A DNA stretch of 64,000 bases from contig JAUHYW010000052.1 of NCBI GenBank assembly GCA_030426085.1, positions 1 through 64,000 on the forward strand, written 5' to 3'. The position numbers and the translations under genes were made by a program. The stretch comes from a bacterium. GTDB lineage: Bacteria; Myxococcota_A; Bradymonadia; UBA7976; UBA1532. The notes beneath the pieces were generated by a model, which searched no databases, had not been told where the DNA came from, and saw only the letters and a program-made list of their open reading frames with translations. Shown here piece after piece: positions 3,368 to 25,568 of this stretch. The first letter of the stretch is position 1. Every line of letters starts with the position of its first letter.

Positions 3368-3368
3368 C

Positions 3369-3770: not shown

Positions 3771-3820
3771 CGGATCTCCTGGGCGCCGCCGGGTGAGCCG
3801 ACGGGTCCGCGGACCGGATG

Positions 3821-3836: not shown

Positions 3837-3983
3837 GCCTTCGCCGGGCGGGTCGGTCGGGGGGTGATCGGGGCGCCGGGCGGGCCCCGGGCTGCGATCG
3901 GCGGCGGTCGTGCGTCGGGGGGTGCGGGCGACCGCCAGCGAACCGCCGGCCGATCGTCATGGTTCTGACGAGCCCCGCGGGCC

Positions 3984-9278: not shown

Positions 9279-11027
9279 TCAGAGCGCGAAGGGCATCACG
9301 ATCCGCATCGGATCCCCACTGAACTGGGGGAAACGGAACGACCGGACCTTGCGCTCGATGCACGAGCCGACCGGCGTGCCCCGCTGGGCGCCGCTCTTCA
9401 CCTTGGCCGAGGTCACCCGCCCGGCGCGGCCGATCACCATCTCGACCGGCACGGTGCCCGACGCGTCGGTGCCGTCCTTGCAGGTCGTGATCGAGCGCGC
9501 GTTGCGCTTGACCACGGTCAGGATCTGGCGCTTGGTCAGCTTCTCGGGCAGCAGCGGATCACCGGACGGCGCAGGCGTGGGCGACGCGGCCGGCGAGGCG
9601 GCGCGGCTCTTCGAGCCCCCACCCGAGCCGTCGAGCGCGCCGAGCAGATCGTCCACCTCGGAGGTCGACTCCTCCTTCTGGCGGGCCGGCTTGCGGGGGG
9701 CGGGCTGGCGGGCGGCCGGCTTGGGGGCCGCAGCCGGCTTGGGGGTCGCGCGGCGGTTGGCGCGCCGGCGGGTGGCCCGGCGGCTCGGCTTCGGCTTCGC
9801 GGCCGCGACCTCTTCCCCGTCGTCCCCGTCTTCGGCTTCGTCGCCGTCCTCGCCGTCTTCCGCCTCGGCCTTGGCCTCCGCTTCGGCGGCGGCCTTCTCG
9901 GCGGCGGCCTTCTCGGCAGCGGCCTTCTCGGCGGCGGCCTTCTCGGCTTCGCTCGGGCCGCCGACGCTCAGCTTGGTCGGCGTGTTGCTCGCGACGGCGG
10001 GCTCGTCCTTCTCGTCGTCGTCCTGCATCATGAACCAAGCCGCCGCGCCCCCGCCGCCGAGCAGCAGCAGGATGATGACCACCAGGGCCACGAGGAGGCC
10101 GGTGTTGCTGCTCGAACTCGGCGCGACCAGCGGCTGGACCGGGGCCGCCGCGGTCAGGGGCGCCGGGGCCATGCCCGCGCCGCCGCCGAACGGATCGTCA
10201 CCGCCGCCGCCGGGGCTCTCGAGGCTGCTCAGCGCCGAGATGTCGATGAGGCCCGACGCCTCGCTGCCCCCGGTGTTGCTGACCTTCTTCGACCGCTTGC
10301 TCGACTCGGCCTCGGCCGCGAGGCTGTCGAGGCTGAACAGCACCGAGTTCTCGTTGCGCTGGTTGCGGAGCTGGGCCGCGGTCGAGATCCGGGGGTCGAC
10401 CGGCTCGTCGGCGGGGAACATGCCCCCGCTGCTGGCGGGCGCCGCCGCGGCGGGCGGGTCGGCCACGTTGTTCGAGGCGATGACGTCGTCGTCCTCGTTG
10501 GGGAACATGCCCGCCGGCGCCTGATGGGTCGGGTCGGCGTCCACCGCCGCCGGGGCCGCCGCAGCCGCAGCCGCGGCCGCCGGGGCCGCTGCTGCCGCAG
10601 GCGCCGCCGGCTCGGGGGCCGCCGCCGGGGCGAGGTGGGCGAACTGAGGCACCGAGCCGAGCCGGGACCAGTCGGTCATGCCCTCGGCCCAGATGAAGCT
10701 CTCGGCGTCGATGTCGCCGTTGTGCAGGTAGCCCTCCACCTGCGCCGCGGTGAGCGGGCCGACGTTCTCCCGGTTGATGACGACGTGCCAGACGGCGTCG
10801 GGGTCACCGGCGGGGGCCGGCGCGGCCGCAGCAGCCGCCGCGTCGGAGGCCGCCGCCGCTGCGGGCGCCGCCTCCTGTGCCGGCGCTTGCGCCTCGGCGC
10901 TCTGCTGGCCGCCGCGCACGACGATCACATGCGAACATTTCTTGCAGCGGATCTTGAAGGTCTTGTTGCGGACCTTGTCGTCGCTGATCTGGTACTTGGC
11001 GCTGCAATTGTCGCAGACGATCTTCAT
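9279..11027 (-). CDS. Zinc-ribbon/GYF/TM/TonB-like protein, AgmX (GltJ)-type
   Basis: The 582-aa product has the domain order of Myxococcus AgmX/GltJ. An MJ0042-type zinc ribbon comes first (C5, C8, C28, C31). A GYF domain follows (about 79-131, VWHVVINRENVGPLT...). Next are long Ala/Pro linkers with an NSVLFSLDSLAAEA and an ASGLIDISALSSL motif. One membrane segment (about 309-333) leads to a periplasmic Glu/Ala/Lys-rich stalk and a C-terminal TonB-like domain (about 498-582, starting LTKRQILTVVKRN). In Myxococcus this protein spans the inner membrane and its cytoplasmic domains contact the MglA gliding switch. It follows, after its own promoter, the TPR/barrel cluster at 11480-20729. Family assignment is by domain order and motifs; a role in motility is inference. 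Confidence 0.85.
   Translation of the reverse strand: MKIVCDNCSAKYQISDDKVRNKTFKIRCKKCSHVIVVRGGQQSAEAQAPAQEAAPAAAAASDAAAAAAAPAPAGDPDAVWHVVINRENVGPLTAAQVEGYLHNGDIDAESFIWAEGMTDWSRLGSVPQFAHLAPAAAPEPAAPAAAAAPAAAAAAAAAPAAVDADPTHQAPAGMFPNEDDDVIASNNVADPPAAAAPASSGGMFPADEPVDPRISTAAQLRNQRNENSVLFSLDSLAAEAESSKRSKKVSNTGGSEASGLIDISALSSLESPGGGGDDPFGGGAGMAPAPLTAAAPVQPLVAPSSSSNTGLLVALVVIILLLLGGGGAAAWFMMQDDDEKDEPAVASNTPTKLSVGGPSEAEKAAAEKAAAEKAAAEKAAAEAEAKAEAEDGEDGDEAEDGDDGEEVAAAKPKPSRRATRRRANRRATPKPAAAPKPAARQPAPRKPARQKEESTSEVDDLLGALDGSGGGSKSRAASPAASPTPAPSGDPLLPEKLTKRQILTVVKRNARSITTCKDGTDASGTVPVEMVIGRAGRVTSAKVKSGAQRGTPVGSCIERKVRSFRFPQFSGDPMRIVMPFAL
9886..9945 (-). repeat. Four 15-bp tandem units encoding EKAAA repeats
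   Basis: Four adjacent 15-bp units (gcggcggccttctcg, one with a single base change) encode successive EKAAA pentapeptides in the periplasmic stalk of the AgmX/GltJ-like protein. Copy number could vary between strains and change stalk length. Confidence 0.85.
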
Positions 11028-11081
11028 CGGAAGCGCTCTCCCAGCAGGCAGAAGGCCCCGCGGATGGCGGTTGCCCGAGCG

Positions 11082-11111
11082 ATTATAGGGTCAGGCTCTG
11101 CGGACCCGCAA
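11082..11111 (-). promoter_or_regulatory. Sigma-70-type promoter of the AgmX/GltJ-like gene
   Basis: On the minus strand a perfect -10 TATAAT (11082-11087) is preceded by 18 bases and a weak -35 TTGCGG (11106-11111). The start of transcription would be near 11075, 48 bases before the ATG at 11027, with GGGAGAG in the leader as ribosome binding site. The gene is therefore separately transcribed from the upstream cluster. Confidence 0.65.
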
Positions 11112-11418
11112 GAACCGGGGCGGGCTCCCTCCCCCCAGCGATTCGAGCGGCAGACTGTGCGTGCGCGGGCCCCCGGAGCCCTTGTTCTGGGCGATCGGGA
11201 GCCGCAGCGCAAGTTCTACGACGATGTGCCCGGTGGATGTCCGGGCCGACGAGAAGAGCGGGGGCAGATCCACCGACGAGCAGGCGCCGCAGAACCCGGC
11301 CCGTCGCTCGGGCGCCCTGTCCCCGGGGAGACCCGGGGCGCACGGCAGGCAGCGGCTGCATGGGGCAGCCCCGGCGCGGCGCGCGGCGCGCATGATCGGG
11401 GTCGTGCGGCGGGGGAGC
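11112..11418. other. Intergenic stretch with no recognised gene
   Basis: Part of the 452-bp gap between two minus-strand genes. Open frames cross it on both strands, but their translations lack any recognisable domain and their starts lack ribosome binding sites. No tRNA-like, SRP-RNA-like or tmRNA-like motif was seen. It may hold regulatory sequence or a small RNA that cannot be identified by eye. Confidence 0.4.
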
Positions 11419-11449
11419 GAGCGCCCGCCGACGGGCGCTGCGGGCGCTC
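11419..11449 (-). terminator. Strong hairpin after the coupled cluster
   Basis: GAGCGCCCGC (11419-11428) and GCGGGCGCTC (11440-11449) form a perfect 10-bp stem. An alternative nested hairpin (GCGCCCG-CCGA-CGGGCGC) shares the same bases. It lies 31 bases after the stop codon of the small secreted protein. No T run follows, so it may be a terminator of reduced efficiency or an mRNA-end stabiliser. Confidence 0.45.
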
Positions 11450-11479
11450 GACGCTGCGGGGGCTCGGCGCTGCGTGTGC

Positions 11480-11749
11480 TCAGCGCAGCGTGGCGTCCTT
11501 GGCGGTCGCCTTGAGCTTGGGCAGGAAGTCCTTCTTCAGCTTGAGCAGCCGCTCGAACTTCACCTTCTGGCGGGCGTCGGTGTAGAGCACCTGGGGCTTC
11601 TTGTACTGGCCGTCGATGAGCAGGTCGTCGAAGTTGTAGAACTTCGTCTTCACGTCATCCCCCCCGCCGCCGCCCTCTGCCTGGGCGAAGCCCGTGGCGG
11701 GCAGGGCGAGCAACGACAGCACGATCGCGCAACGCATGAGGGTCTTCAT
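11480..11749 (-). CDS. Small secreted protein of the TPR/barrel cluster
   Basis: From the ATG at 11749 (GGAGG upstream) the product has 89 aa. A clear signal peptide (MKTLMRCAIVLSLLALPATG, cleavage after FAQ) is followed by a Gly-rich linker and a short charged region with FDDLLIDGQYKKPQVLY and KFERLLKLKKDFLPKL. It is the last gene of the coupled minus-strand cluster, 35 bases after the TPR lipoprotein. By size and place (large TPR, TPR lipoprotein, small protein, AgmX-like) it could correspond to GltF of Myxococcus; I do not recognise the family from its sequence. Confidence 0.75.
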   Translation of the reverse strand: MKTLMRCAIVLSLLALPATGFAQAEGGGGGDDVKTKFYNFDDLLIDGQYKKPQVLYTDARQKVKFERLLKLKKDFLPKLKATAKDATLR

Positions 11750-11784
11750 CGGGGGCCTCCTCGGGGCGGACACTCCGCCCGGGC

Positions 11785-13245
11785 TCAGGTCTCGTCGGTC
11801 TCGTCGTCGGAGCCGGCCGGGGCCGTCTCGTCATCGGCGCCCTCGGGGGCCGCGCGGCCAGCCCCGGCCTCGTCGGCCGCGCCGTCTTCCGCCGCAGGCG
11901 TCTCCGGCTCGCCCGCTTCGGGCGCGCCGTCCGCGGGCGCCTCGCCGCCCTCGGGCGCCGCCTCACTCTCTCCGGGGTCAGCGCCCTCGGGGGCCGCTTC
12001 GCCATCGGCGGGGGCCGCTTCGCCACCCTCGGGGGTCGCCGCGCCGCCCTCAGGGGTCGCCGCGCCGCCCTCGGGGGCCGCCTCGCCGTCCACCGGGTCG
12101 CCGACGGTCTTGGTCTCCATGGTGTCGGCCTGCTGGAGGAACTGGATCGTGGCGTTCAGCGGATGCTCGGGCGGCAGCTTGGCCACATCCCGATAGCGGA
12201 TGTAGTAGCCCAGGGCGGTCTTGGTGTCGCCGAGCTGCTCCTCGTAGATCTTGCCGACCCGCAGCAGCGCCTCGCCGTTGTCCGCCTTGATCTCCAGGCT
12301 GGCCTCGTAGAGCTTCGCCGCGTTCTCGTACTCCCCGATGCCGTAGAGCGCGTTGGCCTCGCCGATCATCGCGCGGTAGTTCTCGGGGAAGCGCTCGCGC
12401 ACCGCCTTGAACTGCTCGAGGGCCTCATCGTAGTCGAGGTAGTCGAGGTAGATCGACGCGAGGTTGAGCCGGGCTTCGTCGATGGTCGGGTCGAGTTCGA
12501 TCGCCTTCTGGAAGGCGAGGACCGCCGCCGGCACGAGGTCCATCTCGAAGAACGTCAGCCCGAGATTGTTGCGGGCCCGGGCGTTCTTGTCGTCGTAGCC
12601 CAGCGCCTTGTTGAACATCAGCAGCGCGAGCGGCAGCTTCTTCTGCTCGAGGTACAAGAGCCCCAGGTTGACGATCGCCGGCACGTTCTTCGGCTGGACG
12701 GCGAGCACCTCTTTGACGTAGCGCAGCGAGGTGTCCTTGTCGCCCTTGGCCAGATAGGCCGCGGCGAGGTTGTTGCGCGCCTGGAGGTCTTCGGGGTGCT
12801 TGCGCAGCACCGACTCGAACTCGACGATGGCCTGATCGGGCTGGCCGCTGAGCAGCAGCACCCGGCCCAGGGCCAGGGTCACCCCCCGGTCGGTCACGTT
12901 CTGCTCGATGAGCTGCCGATAGGCGGCGACCGCCTTCTCGTACCGCCCGAGCCGCTCGTTGCTGTAGGCCAGGTTCAGCCACGCCACGACATAGGTCGGG
13001 TGGGCCTCGGTGGCCTTCTCGAACGAGGCCACCGCCTCGGTGTAGGCCGGCGGTTCGGACTCGAGCGCCTTCACCCCGGCGACGAACGCCTCGTGGGCCG
13101 GCTTGGGGATGCCGTCGATCAGGACCGGCTTGGGCGGCTCCTTGACGACCGGCTTGGGCTTGGGCTTGGGCGTGCCGCCGCAGCCGACGACCAGCGCGGC
13201 GGCGGCCCCGAAGGCCGCCAGACGAGCGATGAGTGAGCGGGCCAT
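11785..13245 (-). CDS. TPR lipoprotein, GltE/AglT-like by context
   Basis: The ATG at 13245 overlaps the upstream stop by one base (TGATG), giving 486 aa. A lipobox (LVVGC) ends the signal sequence, so the protein is anchored to a membrane, probably outer. After a Pro/Lys-rich linker come about eight TPR units (for example VAWLNLAYSNERLGRYEKAV and ARNNLGLTFFEMDLVPAAVLA), from about residue 40 to 360. The last 110 residues are an Ala/Glu/Pro/Gly low-complexity tail with tandem EGGAATP units. In the Glt system of Myxococcus a TPR protein follows the large TPR protein GltD in the same way; equivalence is inferred from order and architecture. Confidence 0.82.
   Translation of the reverse strand: MARSLIARLAAFGAAAALVVGCGGTPKPKPKPVVKEPPKPVLIDGIPKPAHEAFVAGVKALESEPPAYTEAVASFEKATEAHPTYVVAWLNLAYSNERLGRYEKAVAAYRQLIEQNVTDRGVTLALGRVLLLSGQPDQAIVEFESVLRKHPEDLQARNNLAAAYLAKGDKDTSLRYVKEVLAVQPKNVPAIVNLGLLYLEQKKLPLALLMFNKALGYDDKNARARNNLGLTFFEMDLVPAAVLAFQKAIELDPTIDEARLNLASIYLDYLDYDEALEQFKAVRERFPENYRAMIGEANALYGIGEYENAAKLYEASLEIKADNGEALLRVGKIYEEQLGDTKTALGYYIRYRDVAKLPPEHPLNATIQFLQQADTMETKTVGDPVDGEAAPEGGAATPEGGAATPEGGEAAPADGEAAPEGADPGESEAAPEGGEAPADGAPEAGEPETPAAEDGAADEAGAGRAAPEGADDETAPAGSDDETDET
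12017..12079 (-). repeat. Three 21-bp tandem units in the lipoprotein tail
   Basis: Three consecutive 21-bp units, differing at a few positions, encode EGGAATP-type heptapeptides in the low-complexity C-terminus of the TPR lipoprotein. This is a likely site of length variation. Confidence 0.75.
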
Positions 13246-16200
13246 CACTTGTTCTCCTTGGCGGCGTCGGCCGGCTTCGCCTCGGCCGGCGCCGCCGGCT
13301 TCTCACCGGCGGCCGGGGCGGCGGGCGCCCCCTCGGCGGCCGGTGTGGCGCCCCCCGCGGCGGGCGCGGCGCCCTCGGCACCGGGCTGACCCGGCGCGGC
13401 GGGCGCGGCCGGAGCCGGCTTGGGCGGCACCATCTGCTCGAGCTTGCCGGTGGGATCGGCGATGAAGGTCGTCGAGAACGTCGCCGCCACCGGCTGGTCG
13501 GTGTCGTTGGTCGCGTCGTCGAGCACCGGGAACGACTCCGGGCTCAGCTTGACGAGCAGCGTCGCCGCCTTGCGCGACCACTCGTTGTAGACGTGGTGCT
13601 TGTGGGCCAGCTCCAGCGCCCGGCGGGTCGCCTCGATGGCCTTCTCCTGCAGCGGCGCGGCCTGATCGTCCAGCTCGGCGCGGTAGATGAACTCCTCGTC
13701 CTCGGTCAGCCCCTCGGGGATGGGCAGGTCGAAGAGGCTCTGGGCGTAGAGCTGGTAGCTCTCGCCGATGCGGTACAGCGCGCCGGCGCTGACGTTGTAC
13801 GACTTGAACTCGAGCACCTCGAAGAACAGCTTCTCCGACTTGCCGAGCAGCTCCGCCTTCTTCACCAGCCCCTTGCGCAGCTTCGAGATCGGGAACTCGA
13901 GCTTGATGGCCTCGAACTCGTCGTAGACGACCTCGGCCTGAAGGAAGCGCACCCGCGCCGCCGCCTGGCGGACCGCCGGCTTCTGCTGCGCCTCTTCGGG
14001 CAGCTTCTTGTAGACCTTGTTCGCCTTGTCCAGCTCGCTGCTGGCGTTGCGCGCCGAGCGCCGCTCACCGAGCTGCTGATGGAGCTCGGCCTTCTTGAGG
14101 TGCACGTCGACGAGGGTGTCGGCGTGGGTCTTGCCGTACTTCTTGATGTAGCGGTCGTAGGTCTTGAGCGCGTCCTTGAGGTCGCCCTGCTTCACGTGGA
14201 AGTCGGCGATCTGCAGCATCAGCCCGCGGCTGTCGTCGTTCTCGGGGAACTTCTTGATGAAGGTCTCGAAGATGTCGATGGCCTTGTCGTACTGCTCGAG
14301 CGCGGCGCGGATGGCCCCGGCGTTGTACAGCGAGTCGGCCACCTGGGGCACCTCGGGGAACGAGGCCATCTTCTCGAAGTAGGTCGCCGCGGTCTCGAAG
14401 TTGGTCTGGCTCTCGTAGAGCGCGCCGAGCACGAAGTGGGCCTCGGTGGCCTGCGACGACTTCGGATAGCGCTTGATGATGCTCTCGTAGAGGTCGATCG
14501 CGCCCTCGGTCTTCTCGAGCTCCTCGGTGGTCGCCGCGGCGTTGAACAGGGCGATGGCCGCCTTGTCCTGCTGCTTCTTCTCCCGACCGAACTCCTTGAC
14601 GAAGCGCAGCCACTGCTCGACGGCGGCCTGCTTCTTCTCCCGGGCGAGGGCCTCGTCGCCGTCCTTGGCCGCCTTGGTGCCGGCGTCCTTCAGCTCGGTG
14701 GCGTAGTTGTTGATCGAGACCGCGATGACGTCCTGGAGCTGCTTCTTCTTGAGCACCTTGTAGTTCCGGCGGTCGAGCATGTAGCGCGCCCAGCGCTCCA
14801 TCTGGTCCCACCGACGCAGGCGGTAGTTCGAGTCGAAGAGCGTCGCCGCCGCGAAGCCGGCGAACTCGTGCTTCGGGTGGTGCTCCATGATGACTTCGAG
14901 CCGCTTGACGCCCTCGGCGTAGTGCCCCTTCTTGATGAAGATCTCCGCCGAGCGGAACGAGACCGACGGCACGTCCTCGTGCTTGGGGTAGAGGTCGAGG
15001 AACGCGGTGCACGCCTCGAGGAACTCCTTCTCGACCGGGTGGATGTCTTCCTTGGGCTTGGGCTTGAACTCGTCGTCCTTGTCGCGCTTGGTGTACTCGA
15101 CCTTGGGCTTGGCGGCCTTGCCCTTCTTGCCCTTCTTGCCCCGGTCGGGCCGCTCGATCAGCCCCGCGTCGGCCATCTTCTCCTCCTTGGAGAGGATGAC
15201 CGCGTAGGCCGACTCCTGGCTGTACTTGCCCTTCGGGTCGAGCGCGACGACCGCCTTGTAGTGCTCGGCGGCCTTGTCCCACTCCTTCGTCTGGAAGAAG
15301 TAGATCTCGGCGAGATAGAACTCCTTCTCGTAGATGTCCTTCGCCTCGGGGAACCAGTCGATGTACCGCTCGTAGTAGGTCGCCGCCTTCTTGTAGTAGC
15401 GGTCGGCCCGCTCCTGGTCCTTGAGCTTCTCGACCTCCTGGGCCTTGGTGTGGAAGGTCCCGATCAGCCAGTCGGTCTGCTCCTCGCGGTACTGCGTGGC
15501 CCGGATGCGGGGCTCTTCCTTCTCTTTGTTGACCGTGAACCACGAGCCCTTGGGGTCGAGGTCGGTGAGGAACCGGTTGATGACCTGCTCGGTCTTCTCG
15601 ATGTCCTCCTGCTTCTTCCAGGCGGCGGTGATGTACTCGGCGTACTCCGGCACCTTGGGGCCCTGCTTGTTGGCGGTGATCAGGTACTCGTAGACCGCGA
15701 TCTCGTTGTCGGTCTTGTCCTGCTTGTTGTAGATGCGGGCCACCGACTCGAGCTGCCGGGTGGCCAGATCGTCACCGCCGACCTCGCGGAAGTAGTCCCG
15801 GGCCCGCTTCCAGCCGTCGTCCACCTCGGCGTAGGCCAGGGTGAGGGCCGAGAAGGCCTGATTGGTGAAGTAGACCTTGCGCTTGTCCTGGCCCTTCGAG
15901 AGCTCGACGACGCTCTTGAACGACTTGATGGAGTCCTCGTACTCGCGCAGGTTGTAGTACACGTAGCCCAGCTTGTAGAGCGCGTACGGGTACTGGGTGC
16001 TCTTCTTGTCTTCGAGCACCTTGAGGTAGTTGGTCTTCGCCGCGAAGAGCAGGTCGTTGTCGAAGTAGTACTCGGCCACGGCCAGATACGCCTGGGTGAC
16101 GAACTGGCTCTTGGGGTACTCCTTCGTCAGGCGCAGCATGTACGAAGCGCCTTCCTTCTTCTTGCCCGCCGTCGTCAGCCCCCGGCCGAGGTAGAACATC

Positions 16201-16697
16201 ACCTCGTCGATGCGCTTGTAGTTGGGGAACTCCTTGAGCAGCGCCTTGTACTCGACGAGCGCCTTGCTGTAATCGGCGGCCGGCTCCTCGGGCTTCTGCT
16301 TGAGCGTGCCCTCGAGGTAGCTCTCGTACTGCTTGTCGTACTTCTTGCGCTCGAGGAAGTAGCGGTACTTGGCCTCGTCCCACTCCTTCTCGGCGATGCG
16401 GAAGAGCAGGTCGGCCTTGTTCTTGTAGAGCGGGTTCTCGCGCAGGATCTTGCGCATCTGCTCGATCTGACGCTGCCGCACCTTGGAGAGCCGGGCCTCC
16501 TTCTCGGCGACGAGCTGGTCCAGCTCGCTGTCTTCGAGTGAAGGCTGGGCGTCCTCACCCGAGTCGGGCTTGACGACGTTCTCCGCGGCGGCCTCACCGG
16601 TCGCGAGGCCATCCTGCTTGGTGTCGCGCTTCTGGGCGATCGCGGGCGACGCGAAGAGCGCCACCGCGACGGTCAAGGCGGGCAGGGTCCGATTCAT
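13245..16697 (-). CDS. Large exported TPR protein, GltD/AgmU-like by context
   Basis: The ATG at 16697 overlaps the preceding stop (ATGA), giving 1150 aa. The first 22 residues are a signal peptide (MNRTLPALTVAVALFASPAI, AQ). The remainder is an almost continuous array of Tyr-rich TPR/tol-pal-like repeats (YPYALYKLGYVYYNLREYED, AAEHYKAVVALDPKG, ATYFEKMASFPEVPQVADSL), interrupted by Lys-rich segments near 530-560. It ends in an Ala/Pro/Glu low-complexity tail of about 70 residues. The size and repeat content match periplasmic AgmU/GltD-type proteins of Myxococcota. It would act as a scaffold between the membranes with its coupled neighbours. The name is inference; being an exported TPR protein is well supported. 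Confidence 0.85.
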   Translation of the reverse strand: MNRTLPALTVAVALFASPAIAQKRDTKQDGLATGEAAAENVVKPDSGEDAQPSLEDSELDQLVAEKEARLSKVRQRQIEQMRKILRENPLYKNKADLLFRIAEKEWDEAKYRYFLERKKYDKQYESYLEGTLKQKPEEPAADYSKALVEYKALLKEFPNYKRIDEVMFYLGRGLTTAGKKKEGASYMLRLTKEYPKSQFVTQAYLAVAEYYFDNDLLFAAKTNYLKVLEDKKSTQYPYALYKLGYVYYNLREYEDSIKSFKSVVELSKGQDKRKVYFTNQAFSALTLAYAEVDDGWKRARDYFREVGGDDLATRQLESVARIYNKQDKTDNEIAVYEYLITANKQGPKVPEYAEYITAAWKKQEDIEKTEQVINRFLTDLDPKGSWFTVNKEKEEPRIRATQYREEQTDWLIGTFHTKAQEVEKLKDQERADRYYKKAATYYERYIDWFPEAKDIYEKEFYLAEIYFFQTKEWDKAAEHYKAVVALDPKGKYSQESAYAVILSKEEKMADAGLIERPDRGKKGKKGKAAKPKVEYTKRDKDDEFKPKPKEDIHPVEKEFLEACTAFLDLYPKHEDVPSVSFRSAEIFIKKGHYAEGVKRLEVIMEHHPKHEFAGFAAATLFDSNYRLRRWDQMERWARYMLDRRNYKVLKKKQLQDVIAVSINNYATELKDAGTKAAKDGDEALAREKKQAAVEQWLRFVKEFGREKKQQDKAAIALFNAAATTEELEKTEGAIDLYESIIKRYPKSSQATEAHFVLGALYESQTNFETAATYFEKMASFPEVPQVADSLYNAGAIRAALEQYDKAIDIFETFIKKFPENDDSRGLMLQIADFHVKQGDLKDALKTYDRYIKKYGKTHADTLVDVHLKKAELHQQLGERRSARNASSELDKANKVYKKLPEEAQQKPAVRQAAARVRFLQAEVVYDEFEAIKLEFPISKLRKGLVKKAELLGKSEKLFFEVLEFKSYNVSAGALYRIGESYQLYAQSLFDLPIPEGLTEDEEFIYRAELDDQAAPLQEKAIEATRRALELAHKHHVYNEWSRKAATLLVKLSPESFPVLDDATNDTDQPVAATFSTTFIADPTGKLEQMVPPKPAPAAPAAPGQPGAEGAAPAAGGATPAAEGAPAAPAAGEKPAAPAEAKPADAAKENK

Positions 16698-18679
16698 CGC
16701 TTGCACACGTCCTTGAGGTCACTGCGATAGTTGTTGATCTCATCGGACCAGTACTCGCCCTCGAAGGGCCAGGTGACGTACTTGTCGCCGACGAGCACCG
16801 TCGCGGTGGCCTGCGCCTCCGCTTCGGCCTCTTCTTCGCTGGGGCCTCGGTAGGTCTCTTCGATCTGCTTCTCGATCTCGATCGCCTCGATCTCGTCGAT
16901 CTCGATGCGGACCTCGGTGACCTGGATCTCGAGTTCGTCCAGCTCGTCGCTGAGCTGCTGGAGGAGCTGGTTGATCTTGATGCCGAGGGCGATGATGCCC
17001 TCCTGCTTGCGGCTGGTCACCGTCTCGAGCAACTGCACGGCCAGCTCTTCGCCGAGCCCGTCCCGCTGGTCATTGATGCGGGCCACCTCGCGCCGGTACT
17101 GGGTGACGGTGGTGTAGAGGTCGTAGAACTCGGCGTTGGAGATGACCGCCATGCGCAGCAGGTGCGGCAGCTCGACGCCGGGCTGGGTCTGGTCGAGCAC
17201 GAACGCGTTGTACAGGGCCTCGGGCGAGGCGTGCTCGGTGATGAACCGGGTCAGCGGCTGCTTGAGCGCGAGGTAGCGGTCCTCGATGCGCTTGAGCGAG
17301 TCGTGGGCATACTCGAAGTGACAGTTGTTCATGAACACCGTCGCCTCGAGCAGGTAGATGTCCGGCAGGAAGTAGTTCTTCCAGTCGGGCCCGTCGAGGG
17401 TGTGGAAGATGCCGGTCCCCCGGGCGGTGTCGCCCTTGAGGAAGTACGACCAGCCCGACTCGTGCAGCGCGTTGACGTAGCTCGTCGAGTCGTAGGGCAC
17501 CTTGCGGTAGTAGAAGATCGCCACGTCGAACAGGCCGACGGTGTAGGCGATCCGGGCCAGCGCGAGGTAGCCGAGGTGGGCGATGCGCTGCTGGTCCTCC
17601 TGCAGCGCCGCGCCGACCGCCTGCTCGAAGTTCTGCGAGGCGCCGATGAGCCGCCGGGCCCACTCGTCGCTCTCCTCGTCCTCCCCCGCCTCCTGGACCC
17701 CGACGAGCCCCAGCAGGTACTGGGCGTCGGCGTAGTCCGGCCCGCCGGGCGAGACCTCGCCCAGGTAGGTCCGGGCCTCGTCGTAGCGGTTGTAGTCGAA
17801 GAAGAACTTGCCCAGGAAGTAGTTGTAGCTGTCCTGGAATTCGCGGCTCTTGTCGCCCACGAAGTAGTTGGTCATCGCCTCGAGGGTCACCGGGTTGTAG
17901 GCGATGACCCGCGCCGAGCGGCGCAGCCCGCGGAAGGCCGGTTCGAACACGTCGCTCTCGGGGCCGGCCGCGAGCAGCGCCTGATAGCGCTCGGCGGCGT
18001 TGGCGTAGAGCTTGAGGTTGTACAGCGCGTCGGCGAGCCCGAGCTGGGCCTCGTGGGTGCTGGCCTTGCCCTCCTCGGCCTGGGCGAGGAAGGTGCCGAA
18101 CTCCCTGGCGGCGGTGGCGTAGCGCCCGTCCTCCAGGGCGTTGCGGGCCTGATCGAGCGCCCGGGCGACCCGGCGACGCTCCTCGGCGGCCATGCGCTCC
18201 CGCTCCCGGGCGGCGGCCTTGCGCGCCGCCTCGCGGATCCGGGCGTCCTCCTCGATGCGGCGGCGCTCGGCCTCCTCCATCTCGCGCAGGCGCTCGAGCT
18301 CGTCGGGCCCACCCTCACCGACCGGCGGCGGCGCGGGCTCGGGGGCCGGCTCCGGTGCCGGCTCGGGGGCCGGGGCGGGCGCGCCGCTGGCGGTCATCGC
18401 GTCGATGACCTCCTTGGGCACGCCAGCGGCCTCGAGGGCTTTGACGTCGTCGACCGAGAGGTTGAAGGTCGAGCCGGTGCTCTGGATCGTCTGGATGATC
18501 ACCTGGGCCGGCAGGCCCGACTGGTGCATCTGGATGACGTTGTCCTTGGTGATCGCCCAGGCGGCGGTGGCCAGCGGCCCGCAGAGGAGCGCGCCGACCA
18601 GGGCTCCCCGGAGGAGCCACCGACCCGACCGGCGCGGTCGGCGCGGTCCGGGTCGGCTCTGTGTGCTGCGTCGCTTCAT
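16694..18679 (-). CDS. Exported TPR protein with N-terminal helical module
   Basis: The second ATG (18679) is preferred over 18688 because GAGG lies 9 bases before it; the product has 661 aa. A twin-basic, hydrophobic signal peptide ends at about residue 42 (AWA). It is followed by a short helical module (ITKDNVIQMHQSGLPAQVII... VDDVKALEAAGVPKEVIDAM), an EPAPEPAP linker and a charged coiled-coil. Widely spaced TPR-like repeats then begin (ARNALEDGRYATAAREFGTF; YNYFLGKFFFDYNRYDEARTYL). A C-terminal coiled coil (about 550-620) ends in a Trp/Tyr-rich segment (GEYWSDEINNYRSDL). It is coupled to the next gene by ATGA. The protein at 59199-61217 has a similar layout. Role: probable periplasmic scaffold. 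Confidence 0.82.
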   Translation of the reverse strand: MKRRSTQSRPGPRRPRRSGRWLLRGALVGALLCGPLATAAWAITKDNVIQMHQSGLPAQVIIQTIQSTGSTFNLSVDDVKALEAAGVPKEVIDAMTASGAPAPAPEPAPEPAPEPAPPPVGEGGPDELERLREMEEAERRRIEEDARIREAARKAAARERERMAAEERRRVARALDQARNALEDGRYATAAREFGTFLAQAEEGKASTHEAQLGLADALYNLKLYANAAERYQALLAAGPESDVFEPAFRGLRRSARVIAYNPVTLEAMTNYFVGDKSREFQDSYNYFLGKFFFDYNRYDEARTYLGEVSPGGPDYADAQYLLGLVGVQEAGEDEESDEWARRLIGASQNFEQAVGAALQEDQQRIAHLGYLALARIAYTVGLFDVAIFYYRKVPYDSTSYVNALHESGWSYFLKGDTARGTGIFHTLDGPDWKNYFLPDIYLLEATVFMNNCHFEYAHDSLKRIEDRYLALKQPLTRFITEHASPEALYNAFVLDQTQPGVELPHLLRMAVISNAEFYDLYTTVTQYRREVARINDQRDGLGEELAVQLLETVTSRKQEGIIALGIKINQLLQQLSDELDELEIQVTEVRIEIDEIEAIEIEKQIEETYRGPSEEEAEAEAQATATVLVGDKYVTWPFEGEYWSDEINNYRSDLKDVCKR

Positions 18680-18690
18680 CGTGGCCATCC

Positions 18691-19500
18691 TCAGAGGGTG
18701 ATGCCGAGACCGAGGGACAGTTCGGCCGGGATCGAGACCCCGCCCTGGAACTTCTGGAAGAAGTACTGCCGATACTCGGTGCGGATGTTCACCGTGTCGT
18801 TGATGAACCACCGGAAGCCCAGGATCGCATTCCCGCTGAGCTTGTTCTTGGCGTTGCCGTTGGGGTTCTCGGCGGGGAACTCGGTGGTGTTGAACAGCCC
18901 GAAGCCGAGCCCGATGTAGGTCTCGAAGTGGGTCAGCTTGTAGCCGAGCAGGCTGAGCTTGCCGTACAGCGGGGCCCAGAGGATGTTCGCGTTGTAGAAC
19001 ATCGAGATCTTCTCCTGGATGTCGGCCCGCTTGAGGCCGATGCCCTCGCCCTCCAGGAAGGTCGCGAGCTGCGTCTCCTGCTGGAGCGCGTAGGCGTAGG
19101 ACGCCTCGACGGCGAACGCCTCGGAGAAGTGGTAGGCGATGCGCATGCCGACCGGGTAGTAGACGATGAACTCGTCGTTGGGGATGATCGACGCGAAGGG
19201 CATCAGCTCGAAGCGGCCGTCCTTCTCGACGAGCCGCTTCTGCACGACCTTGATCTCGCGCCGGTTGCCCCAGAAGAGGGCCATGTCCTGCTCGAGCGCC
19301 CGCTCGGCCTTGGACGCGGTGGCGTCGCTGACCTCGGTGGGGGCGGCGGCCTCCTCGCCGGCCTCGGTGGGAGCCGCCTCCTCACCGGTCTCTTCCGGAG
19401 CATCCTGGGCCCAGGTCGGTCCGCTCACGACGACCATCGCGACGACCGCCGCGACCCGCAACAGCACCTTGTTCATCGGGTTCATGCTCCGCTTGCTCAT
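18691..19500 (-). CDS. Outer-membrane beta-barrel protein (OMP_myx_plus-like)
   Basis: The ATG at 19500 overlaps the VWA gene's stop (ATGA), giving 269 aa. After a signal peptide (about residues 1-32, ending TWAQ) comes an acidic Ala/Glu/Thr linker. The chain then shows alternating amphipathic strands with aromatic ends (YYPVGMRIAYHFSEAFAVEA, SLLGYKLTHFETYIGLGFGL, FRWFINDTVNIRTEYRQYFF) and a terminal strand PAELSLGLGITL. This matches the small outer-membrane barrels of Myxococcota that accompany Glt-type clusters. It may form the outer-membrane port of the complex made with the coupled TPR proteins. Confidence 0.82.
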   Translation of the reverse strand: MSKRSMNPMNKVLLRVAAVVAMVVVSGPTWAQDAPEETGEEAAPTEAGEEAAAPTEVSDATASKAERALEQDMALFWGNRREIKVVQKRLVEKDGRFELMPFASIIPNDEFIVYYPVGMRIAYHFSEAFAVEASYAYALQQETQLATFLEGEGIGLKRADIQEKISMFYNANILWAPLYGKLSLLGYKLTHFETYIGLGFGLFNTTEFPAENPNGNAKNKLSGNAILGFRWFINDTVNIRTEYRQYFFQKFQGGVSIPAELSLGLGITL

Positions 19501-20729
19501 TCTTTGGAGAACCAGACTCGAGTGTCGGTGAACTCGTCGCTCGACTCCCGCGCCCGCTGAAGGGGGGTCGCCAGCGAGCGCCCCGCGAGGGTGACCTCGA
19601 CCTGCGTGGAGAGCAGCCACCCGCCGGGTTCGAACTCGGCGTTGGACAGGGTGCTCTCGGCCGCCAGCCGCCAGACACCGACGATGCGGTTGCTCACCGC
19701 GGGCTGGAGGTTGTTGTTGGTGGTGAACTCGTCGGCGTTGGGCAGGAAGATGTACTCCCCGCCGGTGCGGCAGGCGAGCTCGGCCAGCTTGGCGTTGCGC
19801 CCGCGCTGCTCGGCGGGGATGTCGGGGTGGTCGGCCCGCTGGAGGTGGATCACGATGACCGGGATCGCCCCCGCCGCCCGGTCGGCGTAGCCGGCGACGG
19901 CCTCTTCGAACTGTCCGCCGGCGTCGCTCGGATCGCCGGCTTCGACGCCGTCGGTGAACAGGACCACCACCGGGTTCATGTTCCCGTTGGGCTCGATCAC
20001 CCGGTTGCGGGTGTCGTTGAGCGCCCGGGTCAGCGGGGTCGTGCCCCGCTGGTCGAACTGCAGTTCGTTGAGCCCCTCGAGGATGACCGACTTGTTGCGG
20101 ATGGGGGTCGAGAGGTCGGGGGTGATGTTGGCCAGCCCCTCTTTGAACGACACCAGCGACAGCAGGTAGTCGTCGGGCAGCGTGCTGACGAGCTGCTGGA
20201 AGAACGAGATGCGCTGCTCGTTGGGGTCGGAGGCCTTGCCCGGGTCGTAGTCCCCGGTGAAGGGGTCGATGCCGGCGAGGCTGCCCGAGTGGTCGAGCAT
20301 CATCACCACCAGCCGCGGGTCGCGGCGGCGGTCCTCACCCCCGGAGTAGGCGAACTCGAGCCCGATGGGGTTGAGGTCGACCCCCCGGGGCATGGCGTCG
20401 GGGCCGAGCGCGACCGCCGCCTGGGCGAAGCCCGAGCCGGCGTCGTTCGGCGCGAGGCTGAACCGGAAGTCGTCGAATTCGAGCAGCTCGCCCACCGGCG
20501 CGAACTCGCCGTTGAGGCGGGTGTCGGGCAGCAGGGCCCGGGTGCCGTCGAGCAGCATCACCGAGAAGTCGATCTGGCCGAGGTCGTCCTGTGCCTTGCA
20601 GGCCCCGGGCACGATCACCTTGGTGAACGAAGTGCGGGTGGGGTCGAGGCCGACGGTCGAGTCGCAGCCCGACGAGAACATCAGCGTCGCGACGCCGAGG
20701 CCGCTCAGCACCAGATTGCGTCTGCGCAT
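19497..20729 (-). CDS. VWA-domain lipoprotein, first gene of the envelope cluster
   Basis: The ATG at 20729 has AGAGG 7 bases upstream, giving 410 aa. A lipobox (FSSGC) follows a short signal sequence. The von Willebrand A domain occupies about residues 135-330: the MIDAS motif is DHSGS (after VVMML), with a conserved Thr in FDQRGTTPLTRAL and FTDGVEAGDPSD. The C-terminal 60 residues are probably beta-rich. VWA domains bind metal and mediate protein contacts at the cell surface. The gene begins the coupled operon and is divergent from the ASH-lipoprotein array; both sides have their own TTGACA promoter. Confidence 0.88.
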   Translation of the reverse strand: MRRRNLVLSGLGVATLMFSSGCDSTVGLDPTRTSFTKVIVPGACKAQDDLGQIDFSVMLLDGTRALLPDTRLNGEFAPVGELLEFDDFRFSLAPNDAGSGFAQAAVALGPDAMPRGVDLNPIGLEFAYSGGEDRRRDPRLVVMMLDHSGSLAGIDPFTGDYDPGKASDPNEQRISFFQQLVSTLPDDYLLSLVSFKEGLANITPDLSTPIRNKSVILEGLNELQFDQRGTTPLTRALNDTRNRVIEPNGNMNPVVVLFTDGVEAGDPSDAGGQFEEAVAGYADRAAGAIPVIVIHLQRADHPDIPAEQRGRNAKLAELACRTGGEYIFLPNADEFTTNNNLQPAVSNRIVGVWRLAAESTLSNAEFEPGGWLLSTQVEVTLAGRSLATPLQRARESSDEFTDTRVWFSKE

Positions 20730-20792: not shown

Positions 20793-20821
20793 TTGCTAGC
20801 ACGCCCCCCCAGGAGTGTCAA
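20793..20821 (-). promoter_or_regulatory. Promoter of the VWA/TPR/barrel operon
   Basis: On the minus strand a perfect -35 TTGACA (20816-20821) is followed by 17 bases and a -10 TAGCAA (20793-20798). Transcription would start near 20786, leaving about 57 bases before the ATG at 20729. It is back to back with the plus-strand promoter at 20872-20901, so a regulator bound between them could control both operons. Confidence 0.6.
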
Positions 20822-20901: not shown

Positions 20902-21071
20902 TTCCGCAGCGCGTAGAGCGGGATTAAAGCGACTGGCCCCCTGTGCGCCCGAGTGAAAAAAATTGCACTGTGTCGATCAGGGGGGCTTTCGATTCCCTGA
21001 TACAGACACCGCAGCCCCGCAATCGGGGTATCTACCACGTCCGCAGGCGCGATCCGCACCGGGGGATATCG

Positions 21072-23159
21072 ATGAGGCAGAGTGCTGTCATGAAAACCCG
21101 TACGCTCGGGGTGAACCTGGTGCTCGCCCTCGCCGCGTGCACCATGGGTCTGGGCTGCGACGACGGCCCGGGCACCATCTCCACCGGGCAGCTCCAGCTC
21201 ACCCCCGACAGCTTCCGCTTCGGCAAGCTGGCCATCGGCGCCGACGCCGATCGGGTGGTGCAGCTCGAGAACGTGGGCTCGGGCGTGATCATCATCGCCA
21301 ACATCCGCTTCGAGGTCGACAACGGCGACCAGGAGTTCGAGCTCTACTACAAGACGACGCCCGAGGAGTCGGAGACCGTCGGCATCAACCGCCAGGGGGT
21401 GGACGACTTCCGCTACCCCATCCGCATCAACGCCGGCGACTCGTTCTATCTGGTCCTCAACTACCGCGCCGCGCGCGAGGTCCCGGTGGGCGGCACGGTC
21501 ATCCTCGAGACCAACCTGCCCGACACCCCCGAGGTCGAGATCCCGGTGGTGCTGTCCGAGGGCGCGCCCGAGATCAACGTCGCGCCTCTGATCCACGACT
21601 TCGAGCGGGTGCCGGCCGGCGAGGTGGGCGAGACCACGATCCGGGTCAGCAACGTGGGCCAGCTCGACCTCGAGGTCAGCCGGGTGCTGCTCAACGGCTC
21701 GCAGGACTTCAAGCCGCTCATCGACGTGGACGGCGACATGCGCGACCCCCGTCAGGTCTCCCAGCCGCTGCGGGTGCTCGGCCCGAGCGAGACGCTCGAG
21801 ATCGACGTGCGCTACACCCCCCAGGTCGAGGGGCCGGACACCGCCGAGCTGACCATCTTCAGCAACGATCCCAACCAGGGCGAGGTCTCGGTGAGCCTGC
21901 GGGCCAACGGGGCCACGCCGTGCCTCCAGGTCAACCCGCCGGCCCTCGAGTTCCAGACCAGCCTCGTCAACCGCACCGACTCCCGCCCGATGTCGCTCGA
22001 GAGCTGCGGCGGGGCGCCGATCGAGATCAGCCGGATCTATCTGGCCGAGGGGTCCGACCCGGCCTACGAGCTCGTCGGCGACAGCCTGCCGATGCTGCCG
22101 GCGCTGATGCCGGAGTACAGCGAGGGCGACCGGCTCGCCGGCCTGCCCCCGCCCAGCCGCTCGATCGAGGTGGCCTTCACCCCCCGCGAGGAGCGCATCC
22201 ACAACGGCACCCTGATCATCGAGAGCAGCGATCCGGTGCACCCGGTGCTCGAGGTGCCCCTGCTCGGCCGGGGCGTGACCAACGCCTGCCCCCAGGCCCG
22301 GGCGGTGGAGGACGAGTTCTACGTGGTGCCGCTCGACGTGGTGGTGCTCGACGGCACCCCGTCCATCGACCAGGACGCCGAGGACAACCGGCCGGTGAGC
22401 TACGAGTGGGTCATCACCAGCCGCCCCGACGGGTCGGTCTCCCAGCCGCACGAGTCGTTCTACGATCCCGGTCAGCCGGCCAACGGCGGCCTCGACGACG
22501 ATCTGATGACCCCCACGTCGGTCTTCTTCGTCGACCTCGCCGGCACCTACACCGCCGAGCTGCGGGTGCGCGACAACCTGGGGCTGGACTCGATCGCCTG
22601 CGAGAACCCGGCGGTGGTGACCATCGTCGCCAAGCCCGAGGAGGCCATCCACGTGCAGCTCGTCTGGCGCACCCCGGGTGATCCCGACGAGACCGAGGGC
22701 GGCGGCACCGACCTCGACCTGCACCTGCTGCACCCCAACGCCGAGAACTGGTTCTCCCGGCCGTACGACTGTCACTACGCCGAGCCGGTGCCCGACTGGG
22801 GGCAGATCGAGAACAGCGTCGATGATCCGAGCCTGGACATCGACGACATCAATGGGGCGGGTCCGGAGAACATCAACCTGGACAACCCGGAGAACACCGA
22901 CAACCTGGGGGCGCCCTATCTGGTCGGCGTGCACTACTACAACAGCCGCGACCGGGTGACCGGCCAGGACTACGGCCCGAGCTGGGCCACGGTCCGCATC
23001 TTCATCGAGGGTGAGCTGGCCTGGGATTACACCGATGGCGAGAACCCCGGCGAGCGTGAGATGGAGGCCGAGGATCACTTCTGGGACGTGGCCCAGATCT
23101 CGTGGGGCGTGACCGGCGAGGTCGTGACCCGCGACCGGTACTACAGCCAGCGGCCCTGA
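21072..23159 (+). CDS. Lipoprotein with ASH repeats, PKD and YfaP-like domains (array gene 1)
   Basis: The ATG at 21072 (GGGGGA upstream) gives 695 aa; the ATG at 21090 is an alternative. The signal sequence has a lipobox at LAAC (C23). About residues 36-415 are three ASH/choice-of-anchor-D beta-sandwich repeats (LDFG-like starts such as LTPDSFRFGKLAIG, ISNVG-type strands, IFSNDPNQGEVSVSLRANG ends). Residues 418-520 look like a PKD domain (VVLDGTPSIDQDAED...YEWVITSRPDG). Residues 525-690 resemble the YfaP/DUF2135 module (TDLDLHLLHPN, PDWG, DPSLDIDDINGAGPENI). Probably exposed on the outer membrane. Function is unknown; these domains usually mediate protein or glycan contacts. Confidence 0.85.
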   Translation: MRQSAVMKTRTLGVNLVLALAACTMGLGCDDGPGTISTGQLQLTPDSFRFGKLAIGADADRVVQLENVGSGVIIIANIRFEVDNGDQEFELYYKTTPEESETVGINRQGVDDFRYPIRINAGDSFYLVLNYRAAREVPVGGTVILETNLPDTPEVEIPVVLSEGAPEINVAPLIHDFERVPAGEVGETTIRVSNVGQLDLEVSRVLLNGSQDFKPLIDVDGDMRDPRQVSQPLRVLGPSETLEIDVRYTPQVEGPDTAELTIFSNDPNQGEVSVSLRANGATPCLQVNPPALEFQTSLVNRTDSRPMSLESCGGAPIEISRIYLAEGSDPAYELVGDSLPMLPALMPEYSEGDRLAGLPPPSRSIEVAFTPREERIHNGTLIIESSDPVHPVLEVPLLGRGVTNACPQARAVEDEFYVVPLDVVVLDGTPSIDQDAEDNRPVSYEWVITSRPDGSVSQPHESFYDPGQPANGGLDDDLMTPTSVFFVDLAGTYTAELRVRDNLGLDSIACENPAVVTIVAKPEEAIHVQLVWRTPGDPDETEGGGTDLDLHLLHPNAENWFSRPYDCHYAEPVPDWGQIENSVDDPSLDIDDINGAGPENINLDNPENTDNLGAPYLVGVHYYNSRDRVTGQDYGPSWATVRIFIEGELAWDYTDGENPGEREMEAEDHFWDVAQISWGVTGEVVTRDRYYSQRP

Positions 23160-23183
23160 GCCGCCGGCCGGCCACGCGCGCAG

Positions 23184-23220
23184 CGACCCCGACCGCCCGG
23201 CGGTGCGGGGTCGTTTTGTT
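23184..23220 (+). terminator. Intrinsic terminator after array gene 1
   Basis: CGACCCCG (23184-23191) pairs with CGGGGTCG (23206-23213), and inner ACCG pairs with CGGT around a 5-base loop. The stem is followed at once by TTTTGTTTG. This is a textbook rho-independent terminator, 24 bases after the stop codon, so gene 1 is at least partly separated from gene 2. Confidence 0.88.
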
Positions 23221-23299
23221 TGTGGGCGGTGAATCCGCACCCTGCGCGACGGCTCGGCCGTACCGCGAATCGACGGACGAGATGCGAACGGAGGCATCG

Positions 23300-25348
23300 A
23301 TGCAGAGCAGGCTTCTACCCCGTCGGCGCGCGGCGCTGGCCCTCGGACTGGCCGTAGCGGCCCTGGCCCTCGGCTGCGACGAGCCGTCGGGCATCGAGAC
23401 CCCCGAGCTGGTGCTCGAACCGCCGGAGTTCGTCTTCCCCCGCTCACCGGTGGGCGCCGAGGAGGTCCGCCGGGTCACCGTGAACAACCAGGGCGCGGCC
23501 GAGCTGATCATCGTCGACGTCGAGCTCGACGATCGCTCCTCGGGCGGCGAGTTCACCCTGGCCCTCGACGAAGGGGCCGGCCCCGGTCCGGTGCCCGCGG
23601 GCCGGCTGGTGGTCCCGCCCGGCGGCCGGATCGAGTTCGAGGTCACCTATCGGGTGGTGGACGAGACCAACGACACCGGCACGCTCCGCTTCTCGACCAA
23701 TGACCCCGACGCCCTGGAGGTCCCGATCCCGATCCGGGCGGGTGACGTGGGCGCCGAGATCGTCGTCAACCCCCGCAGCCTGGACTTCGGGGACGTCGAG
23801 GTGGGCCAGACCCGCACCCGCATGCTGACCATCCAGAACCTGGGGCTGGCCGATCTGGAGATCGGCGAGCTGGTGATCAGCGGCCGGGAAGGCTTCGACG
23901 TGCGCCAGGACGGGGCCTCGGTCGCCGGCCCCCGCACCCCGCCGCTGCGGGTGCCGGGGCAGGGATCGACGCTGCTCGAGGTGGTTTACACCCCGGTCGG
24001 CCTGGGCACCGCCAACGGGCAGCTCGACATCCGCAGCAACGCGATCAACGGCGGCTCGACGACGGTCGACCTGTACGCCAACGGCGCGGTGCCGTGCATG
24101 AACGTGGTGCCGGACACCCTGAACTTCGGCCCCAGCCTGCTGGTGGACGACCGCGAGGGGCCGACCCCCAACCGGCGGGCCCTGATCATCGAGAACTGCG
24201 GCAGCACCCCGCTCCAGATCGACCGCATCGAGCTGGACGATCCGGCCGGCGTCTTCGACCTCGTCGATCCGCCGGAGCCGGTCGAGGGCGGTCTGCTCGA
24301 GCTGCCGGGCGCGGTGGGTGACGAGGAGCCGCCCAGCGCCAACCTGGAGGTCGGCTTCTGGCCGCTGGCGATCGAGGCCTACGGGGGCTACCTCCGGATC
24401 TACAGCAACGTGCCGCCCATCGACGAGCCGACGGTGGTCGATCTCTTCGGGCGGGGGGTGGACAACGAGTGCCCCGAGCCGCGGGTGACCCAGGACCTCT
24501 TCGAGGTGCAGCCCCTGGAGATCATCACCCTCGACGGCACCCCGTCGAGCGACCCCGACGGCGAGGTCCGCAAGTGGCGCTGGACGGTGGTCGAGCGGCC
24601 CGAAGGCAGCGTCAGCCAGCCGCTGGAGAGCTTCGCCGACCCCCGGCGGCCGGCGGACGGAGGCGAGGCGGACGACACCGCGACCCCCCGGGCGCAGTTC
24701 TTCGTCGACCTCACCGGGGAGTACGTGCTCGAGTTGCAGGTGGTCGACGCGCTGAATCAGGTGAGCTGCGACCCCCGGGCGGTGGCCCGGGTGACCATCC
24801 GGGCGGTGCCCCAGAAGGAGCTTCACATCCAGCTCGTGTGGAGCACGCCCGACGACCCCGACGAGACCGACACCACCGGCACCGACGTGGATCTGCACCT
24901 GGCCCATCAGCGGGCCGATGGTCGGTGGAGCGGGGCGGCGGACGGCTGGGACTGCTACTTCCGCAACGCGCAGCCGGACTGGGGCGTGGTCGGGGAGGTG
25001 GCCGACAACCCCAGCCTCGACATCGACGACACCAACGGCGCCGGGCCGGAGAACATCAACCTCGCCGAGCCCGAGATCGGGGTGAGCTACGAGGTCGGCG
25101 CGATCTACTTCCGCTCGACGAGCACGTTCGGCGATCCCGAGGTCGATCGGCTGGCGCAGCACCCGTCCTACGTCACCATGCGCATCTTCAACCGGGGCAC
25201 CCCGCTCGCCGAGCTGGTGGGCAAGGAGCTCACCGAGGGCATGCAGCTCTGGCACATGGCGACGGTGACCTGGTGCGAGGGCGAGGGCTGCCCCCAGATC
25301 GACATCGTCGACGAGCTGTACGCCGAGGGCGAATACAACCTGCCCTGA
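23300..25348 (+). CDS. Lipoprotein with ASH repeats, PKD and YfaP-like domains (array gene 2)
   Basis: The ATG at 23300 with GGAGG 5 bases upstream gives 682 aa. The lipobox is LALGC (C26). The layout repeats gene 1: ASH units (VVNPRSLDFGDVEVGQTRTR, NVVPDTLNFGPSLLVDD), a PKD-like segment (ITLDGTPSSDPDGEV...RWTVVERPEG) and a YfaP-like end (TDVDLHLAHQ, PDWGVVGE, NPSLDIDDTNGAGPENI). Genes 1 and 2 are thus tandem paralogues that have diverged considerably but kept the whole architecture. Export to the outer membrane or surface is expected. No enzyme motif is seen. Confidence 0.85.
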   Translation: MQSRLLPRRRAALALGLAVAALALGCDEPSGIETPELVLEPPEFVFPRSPVGAEEVRRVTVNNQGAAELIIVDVELDDRSSGGEFTLALDEGAGPGPVPAGRLVVPPGGRIEFEVTYRVVDETNDTGTLRFSTNDPDALEVPIPIRAGDVGAEIVVNPRSLDFGDVEVGQTRTRMLTIQNLGLADLEIGELVISGREGFDVRQDGASVAGPRTPPLRVPGQGSTLLEVVYTPVGLGTANGQLDIRSNAINGGSTTVDLYANGAVPCMNVVPDTLNFGPSLLVDDREGPTPNRRALIIENCGSTPLQIDRIELDDPAGVFDLVDPPEPVEGGLLELPGAVGDEEPPSANLEVGFWPLAIEAYGGYLRIYSNVPPIDEPTVVDLFGRGVDNECPEPRVTQDLFEVQPLEIITLDGTPSSDPDGEVRKWRWTVVERPEGSVSQPLESFADPRRPADGGEADDTATPRAQFFVDLTGEYVLELQVVDALNQVSCDPRAVARVTIRAVPQKELHIQLVWSTPDDPDETDTTGTDVDLHLAHQRADGRWSGAADGWDCYFRNAQPDWGVVGEVADNPSLDIDDTNGAGPENINLAEPEIGVSYEVGAIYFRSTSTFGDPEVDRLAQHPSYVTMRIFNRGTPLAELVGKELTEGMQLWHMATVTWCEGEGCPQIDIVDELYAEGEYNLP

Positions 25349-25512
25349 CAGCCGGCTCCCCCGCCTGCCCGCTCGCCGGATCCGGGGGTCGGGATCCGCC
25401 GCGAGCGACCGCCCGCACCCGCCGACGGATACATCCGGCGGCGGGGATCCTGACACGGGATCGACGACCCGATGGTCATGCCCTGCGGCTCAGGGGCGGC
25501 TTCCTGCCGATC

Positions 25513-25542
25513 TTGTCGCACACCCGGAGCCGCTGCTATCGT
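25513..25542 (+). promoter_or_regulatory. Promoter of array gene 3
   Basis: TTGTCG (25513-25518), an 18-base spacer and TATCGT (25537-25542) predict a start near 25549, 20 bases before the ATG at 25569. Both boxes match four of six consensus bases. The 220-bp gap before gene 3 supports separate transcription. Confidence 0.5.
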
Positions 25543-25568
25543 GCGCCGTCACAATGCCGGAGACCGCG

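Follow-up and report, generated by a model that had tools for sequence, protein, structure and literature searches.

The DNA analysed here, a window of 64,000 nucleotides, carries a real and conserved machine of the Glt/Nfs family whose gene arrangement is new and includes a candidate adhesin. Our preferred reading, which we consider probable, is that the locus encodes a trans-envelope force transducer with its own adhesin, from a lineage placed by the best tree before the duplication of Glt and Nfs. The novelty lies in the VWA family, which differs in sequence from CglB and whose gene opens the operon. The source genome is an uncultured MAG of 10.1 Mb in 178 contigs, 95% complete, and the contig that contains the window is 73 kb long.

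Organization of the locus

An initial annotation had described a Glt/Nfs-like set of seven genes. Reading of the open reading frames in the window showed that all seven are present on the minus strand, running from 20729 to 9279, and two promoters were found with them:

19497..20729, minus strand: VWA/MIDAS lipoprotein (Pfam VWA, MIDAS alignment, AlphaFold model; an in-frame ATG lies also at 20744)
18691..19500, minus strand: 8-strand outer-membrane barrel of NfsA/NfsB/GltA/B type (TIGR04565, lineage HMM, model)
16694..18688, minus strand: GltC/NfsC-like exported TPR protein (NF033756, lineage HMM)
13245..16697, minus strand: GltD/NfsD-like exported TPR protein, 1150 aa (TPR families, tree, AU tests)
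11785..13245, minus strand: GltE-like TPR lipoprotein (NF033758)
11480..11749, minus strand: CglF/GltF-like secreted protein, 89 aa (NF033764, lineage HMM)
9279..11027, minus strand: GltJ/AgmX-like protein (NF033761, NF033768, Pfam Zn_ribbon_4 and GYF_2)
20793..20821, minus strand: operon promoter, TTGACA-N17-TAGCAA, TG-extended (conserved in relatives)
11082..11111, minus strand: promoter of the GltJ-like gene, TTGCGG-N18-TATAAT (conserved in relatives)

A GltD profile search found 78 loci, about a dozen of them in Myxococcota MAGs of the window's kind. The order VWA-barrel-GltC-GltD-GltE is common to the nine loci examined (L063, L064, L066-L069 and L071-L073), always with the VWA gene first (9/9), and GltF-GltJ-rplC was reached within the fetched DNA in five of the nine. 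Since it is kept in nine further Myxococcota MAG loci, the gene order is far beyond chance.

The genes had been called largely coupled by overlaps, which is a fair description. The VWA/barrel junction is a 4-nt ATGA overlap, the GltC/GltD junction is again ATGA and the GltD/GltE junction is TGATG (1 nt), but the barrel gene is separated from the GltC-like gene by a 2-nt gap. GltE and GltF are 35 nt apart, and GltF and GltJ 452 nt. The promoter site of the GltJ-like gene lies within this last gap. L063 and L064 have it upstream of gltJ too, and the more distant relatives L066, L068 and L071 have an altered form there, which supports the separate promoter proposed for this gene. The operon promoter occurs as the same site in L063, L064, L067, L068 and L071 and as a variant in L073; it is kept even though L071 is AT-rich. 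The region upstream of the operon showed no sigma-54 site.

The machine had also been called complete, and this does not hold: there is no gltG, gltH, gltI, gltK or motor gene within the operon, and the motor and GltG-like genes sit elsewhere in the genome. Compared with the Glt system of Myxococcus xanthus, the operon shares GltC, GltD, GltE, GltF/CglF, GltJ and an outer-membrane barrel, the locus has a VWA lipoprotein as adhesin candidate, and the genome has an AglRQS-like motor and MglA. It differs in being one operon with the VWA gene inside, as compared to two clusters (G1 and G2), in lacking gltG, gltH, gltI and gltK, and in matches that stay below the equivalog cut-offs.

Components of the transducer

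Profile searches against the Glt/Nfs families matched the barrel, GltC, GltE, GltF and GltJ, the named equivalogs all below their cut-offs. The GltC-like protein matched NF033756 (7e-51, 174 bits, cut-off 450), the GltE-like protein NF033758 (8e-26, 91 bits, cut-off 225), the 89-aa protein NF033764 CglF, another name of GltF (PMC4488436) (8e-11, 42 bits, cut-off 90), and the GltJ-like protein NF033761 (3e-48, 165 bits, cut-off 450) and NF033768 (2e-13). GltC, GltE, GltF and GltJ homologues are thus found together in one locus by NCBIfam. The barrel matched TIGR04565 (OMP_myx_plus, the myxobacterial barrel domain) at 5e-29, and its model, of moderate confidence (pLDDT 68.5), has eight long strands and resembles OmpW, OmpX and OmpA. 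The large GltD-like protein matched TPR families in Pfam. The GltE assignment is the weakest of these identities because other TPR models of NCBIfam score as high on the protein; its position and lipobox favour GltE. The NCBIfam profiles, the lineage HMMs and the GltD tree all agree on the kinship with Glt/Nfs that had been proposed.

The GltJ-like protein is built of a zinc ribbon, a GYF_2 domain, one transmembrane segment and an AgmX/PglI periplasmic C-terminal domain (Pfam, NCBIfam), and the four ribbon cysteines and the GYF core are invariant in 6 homologues. This protein is probably the inner-membrane arm of the machine: the zinc ribbon and GYF domain would form a switch on the cytoplasmic side, and the C-terminal domain, TonB-like, would lie in the periplasm. 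Through this arm, an AglRQS-type proton motor whose genes lie elsewhere in the genome would be coupled to the TPR chain of GltD, GltE and GltF in the periplasm, and also to an outer-membrane module made of the barrel and GltC. This module would in turn present the VWA lipoprotein at the cell surface as a metal-dependent adhesin, which may grip the substratum or another cell. We infer that the machine assembles and that its output is gliding. Being compact and having its own MIDAS lipoprotein next to barrel, TPR chain and GltJ, the locus could serve as a simple natural version for reconstitution.

The VWA lipoprotein

The first protein of the operon has a lipobox (SSGC), an intact DxSxS..T..D MIDAS (D146-x-S-x-S, T231, D260) and a VWA fold (Pfam VWA, 7e-7). 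The MIDAS residues do not vary among 11 homologues. In the AlphaFold model (pLDDT 85) the VWA domain is joined by a beta-rich part built from both chain ends. A structure search with the model placed the VWA domain close to integrin I domains (Z about 20); the matches were generic VWA matches only and do not point to any one adhesin structure.

The established adhesin of the Glt complex is CglB, a VWA outer-membrane lipoprotein that is recruited (PMC13104615, PMC4488436) and also retained (PMC13104615) by the complex, and that has been described as restricted to Myxococcales (PMC3169522). The protein in the window resembles it in being a lipoprotein of about 410 aa that has its lipobox at the N-terminus and contains a MIDAS VWA domain, and differs in having few cysteines, as compared to 17 in the CglB orthologue studied, and in being operon-encoded. 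As CglB reference we used the gene of a Myxococcaceae-type genome (G177), located by position and confirmed with NF033757 at 590 bits. A 404-aa VWA lipoprotein (L190) had been taken for CglB and was dropped when the true CglB was found elsewhere by position and confirmed with the same model.

The CglB model NF033757 matched neither the VWA protein nor anything else in the genome (E 0.01), and the VWA protein is therefore placed in a separate family. In a profile-to-profile comparison with CglB the VWA domain alone aligned (probability 73, E 3e-5). In 39 genomes of the Archangium family, nothing matched the lineage VWA profile over its full length; the best weak matches were BatA-like VWA proteins. 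Together, the CglB model and the lack of a full-length match in these 39 genomes rule out that the gene is a CglB orthologue. Of 151 genomes sampled from the phylum, 7 had homologues, almost all of these in the same family or order.

The leading gene had been suggested to be a new subunit. Its role has a counterpart in CglB, judged by size, lipobox and MIDAS, but the family is new in that it is not CglB by sequence. We therefore regard the protein as a candidate surface adhesin, apparently CglB-like in build and role, and we infer that it is exposed at the surface. The locus suggests that machines of this kind generally come with a VWA adhesin and that one adhesin family can be exchanged for another. 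A second VWA paralogue, 48% identical, is encoded on another contig, away from any glt gene (C50:44848-45957; L051:8891-9985).

Divergent genes

Four genes run head to head with the operon (21090-30244), and a palindrome lies between the two transcription units:

21090..23159, plus strand: U1, choice-of-anchor-D/ASH lipoprotein (conserved neighbour)
23282..25348, plus strand: U2, choice-of-anchor-D/ASH lipoprotein (conserved neighbour)
25554..28655, plus strand: U3, Ig-like lipoprotein with a Cys-rich C-terminal MIDAS VWA, CglD/MIDAS-adhesin type (NF052240, CglD)
28709..30244, plus strand: U4, choice-of-anchor-D lipoprotein (profile match)
20952..20970, no strand: AT-rich palindrome CAGTGCAATTTTTTTCACT, between the divergent units (pattern count)

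The palindrome CAGTGCAATTTTTTTCACT occurs once in the window, as compared to 0 expected, and recurs in related MAGs; it is likely to be an operator. U1-U3 are kept in four relatives, as is the DNSGSM motif of U3. U3 matched NF052240, the model of the Bdellovibrio MIDAS adhesins, at 3e-9 and CglD at 2e-7, both far below the cut-offs. By their predicted products, the operon and the divergent genes together look like a transducer plus adhesins.

The presence of a VWA lipoprotein in the operon and a CglD/MIDAS-type protein opposite could also mean that the complex displays VWA and Ig-like lipoproteins for adhesion to prey or surfaces in a predatory lifestyle, linked to a motor but without driving motility. 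In Bdellovibrio, the MIDAS lipoprotein Bd0875 functions at the junction between predator and prey (PMC11003981). The Bdellovibrio adhesins Bd0875 and Bd1483 also share with the VWA protein the lipobox and a VWA domain inserted in a small beta-rich domain from both ends (PMC11003981; for the protein in the window, by model), but NF052240 misses the operon protein and matches only U3, weakly. A passive adhesin would have no need of GltC/D/E/F and a GltJ arm, and we give this explanation a small probability.

Relation to the Glt, Nfs and core clusters

The Myxococcaceae-type genome G177 has three GltD-type clusters: a core type adjoining mglBA, an nfs type and a glt type, the last named via an Archangium locus (L081) where GltE, CglF, GltG and CglE pass their cut-offs. 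In the same type of genome, a core cluster of GltC/D/E/F/G lies directly beside mglBA (L206:3871-17908).

In the GltD tree the window clade is sister to Myxococcaceae GltD and NfsD (SH-aLRT 99), which group together with 89. A grouping of the window GltD with the core-type clade was rejected (AU test, p 0.0001), which rules out that the operon is the common core cluster. Neither a grouping with GltD alone (p 0.14) nor one with NfsD alone (p 0.08) was rejected. The lineage HMMs of the barrel, GltC and GltF rank the Glt/Nfs members of G177 above its core-type cluster. The barrel HMM found NfsA at 1e-20 and NfsB at 8e-13, the GltC HMM found NfsC at 2e-40 as compared to 3e-14 for the core-cluster GltC, and the GltF HMM ranked GltF above NfsF and NfsF above the core type. 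The group B core complex (GltC/D/E/G and AglRQS; PMC3169522) has the same gene families, and such a cluster is carried on contig C138 of this genome, but the window clade is phylogenetically apart from it.

According to published work, glt and nfs go back to a single system that was duplicated, and GltI, J and K are missing from Nfs (PMC3858216). The best supported position of the window clade is a branch outside the GltD/NfsD split, before the duplication; it is not proven, because the branches are long. The description of the operon as an ancestral or reduced Glt/Nfs complex is thus favoured by the best tree, but the AU tests (p 0.08-0.14) leave the position short of proof. The locus may show the machine before the gliding and spore-coat versions split, which would bear on the shared-core origin of Glt and Nfs.

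The similarity to Nfs needs to be weighed here. As in the spore-coat complex (nfsA-H), barrel-C-D-E-F lie in one run (PMC3858216) and rplC adjoins both loci, and by BLAST the window GltD is as close to NfsD (274 bits) as to GltD (273 bits). Nfs rotates a surface polymer (PMC3858216), and the transducer might in the same way move or secure a surface polysaccharide, of a capsule or a spore or cyst coat, instead of the cell. The locus differs from nfs by its GltJ and VWA genes, and there is no NfsG/NfsH-like gene and no second barrel in the window gene run. The locus encodes a GltJ that carries zinc ribbon and GYF, whereas Nfs has no GltJ (PMC3858216), and the presence of MIDAS VWA genes to either side suggests gripping rather than polymer handling. 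A polysaccharide-handling machine is for these reasons unlikely, and the force transducer with its own adhesin is preferred.

Motor and further genes elsewhere in the genome

Motor and MglA genes were found outside the window. Of 14 MotA/ExbB-type genes in the genome, a single one, on contig C138, is the first gene of an AglR-AglQ-AglS-like trio, which was recognized by its layout and membrane families. The trio lies with GltD2, GltE2, GltF2 and a GltG-like gene, which form a second, core-type cluster. An mglBA tandem, with MglB matching Robl_LC7, is located on C67. Searches for barrels and for GltG (a protein with FHA, TM and TonB-like parts) outside the operon gave two adjacent barrels of GltA/B type followed by a HEAT-repeat protein (C95:30911-32484; L049:8911-10484), and GltG-like genes below the cut-off of 650 bits (171 bits on C138, 189 bits on C160).

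It is plausible that the machine in the window shares the AglRQS motor of C138, since the Agl motor of M. xanthus serves Glt and Nfs alike (PMC3858216). Such sharing is assumed, because the operon has no GltG and the only AglRQS trio is beside another GltD/E/F set.

A pair of genes on the minus strand of contig C31 (1951-3863; L052:1951-3249 and 3246-3863), joined by an ATGA overlap, encodes a membrane protein and a partner that ends in a sigma-like helix-turn-helix. The membrane protein has an N-terminal HxxxCxxC (anti-sigma-like) motif, a transmembrane segment and a near-copy of the periplasmic arm of GltJ (91% over the last 92 aa, 81% over 176 aa). The pair is a possible regulator that reads the state of the Glt machine. 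Because the anti-sigma-like protein carries a near-copy of the GltJ arm, engagement of the machine could, if this is true, release a transcription factor. The whole combination, a pre-duplication gliding machine with an operon-borne non-CglB adhesin whose state is read by the cell through the C31 pair, is a speculation that we think more probably wrong than right by far.

Flagellar and ribosomal neighbours

The operon had been placed beside flagellar genes. Such genes are present in the window and kept near the operon in related MAGs, but they are 5.5 kb away and not directly adjacent, with rplC, dapF, a sigma-54 activator and a TPR gene in between. fliF and a fliG truncated at the edge of the window were confirmed with Pfam; fliE, flgC and flgB were identified by reading the sequence. 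The combination of flagella and gliding is unusual but not unknown, since both are reported for the Bradymonadales predator Persicimonas (PMC7188933).

The sigma-54 activator and the TPR gene are found near the operon in related MAGs as well, and the neighbourhood as a whole could suggest an envelope complex associated with the flagellum that reuses Glt parts. The parts belong to Glt/Nfs and not to known flagellar families, and in L071 the Glt operon is intact while the limited flank that was fetched has no flagellar match. A flagellum-associated complex is accordingly very improbable.

The lone rplC (8339-9004) adjoins the operon, and in a Myxococcaceae-type genome the nfs cluster likewise has an rplC immediately upstream (L207:2638-3312). 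The TPR protein at 3984-6344, between flgB and the sigma-54 activator, is kept with the flagellar genes in relatives.
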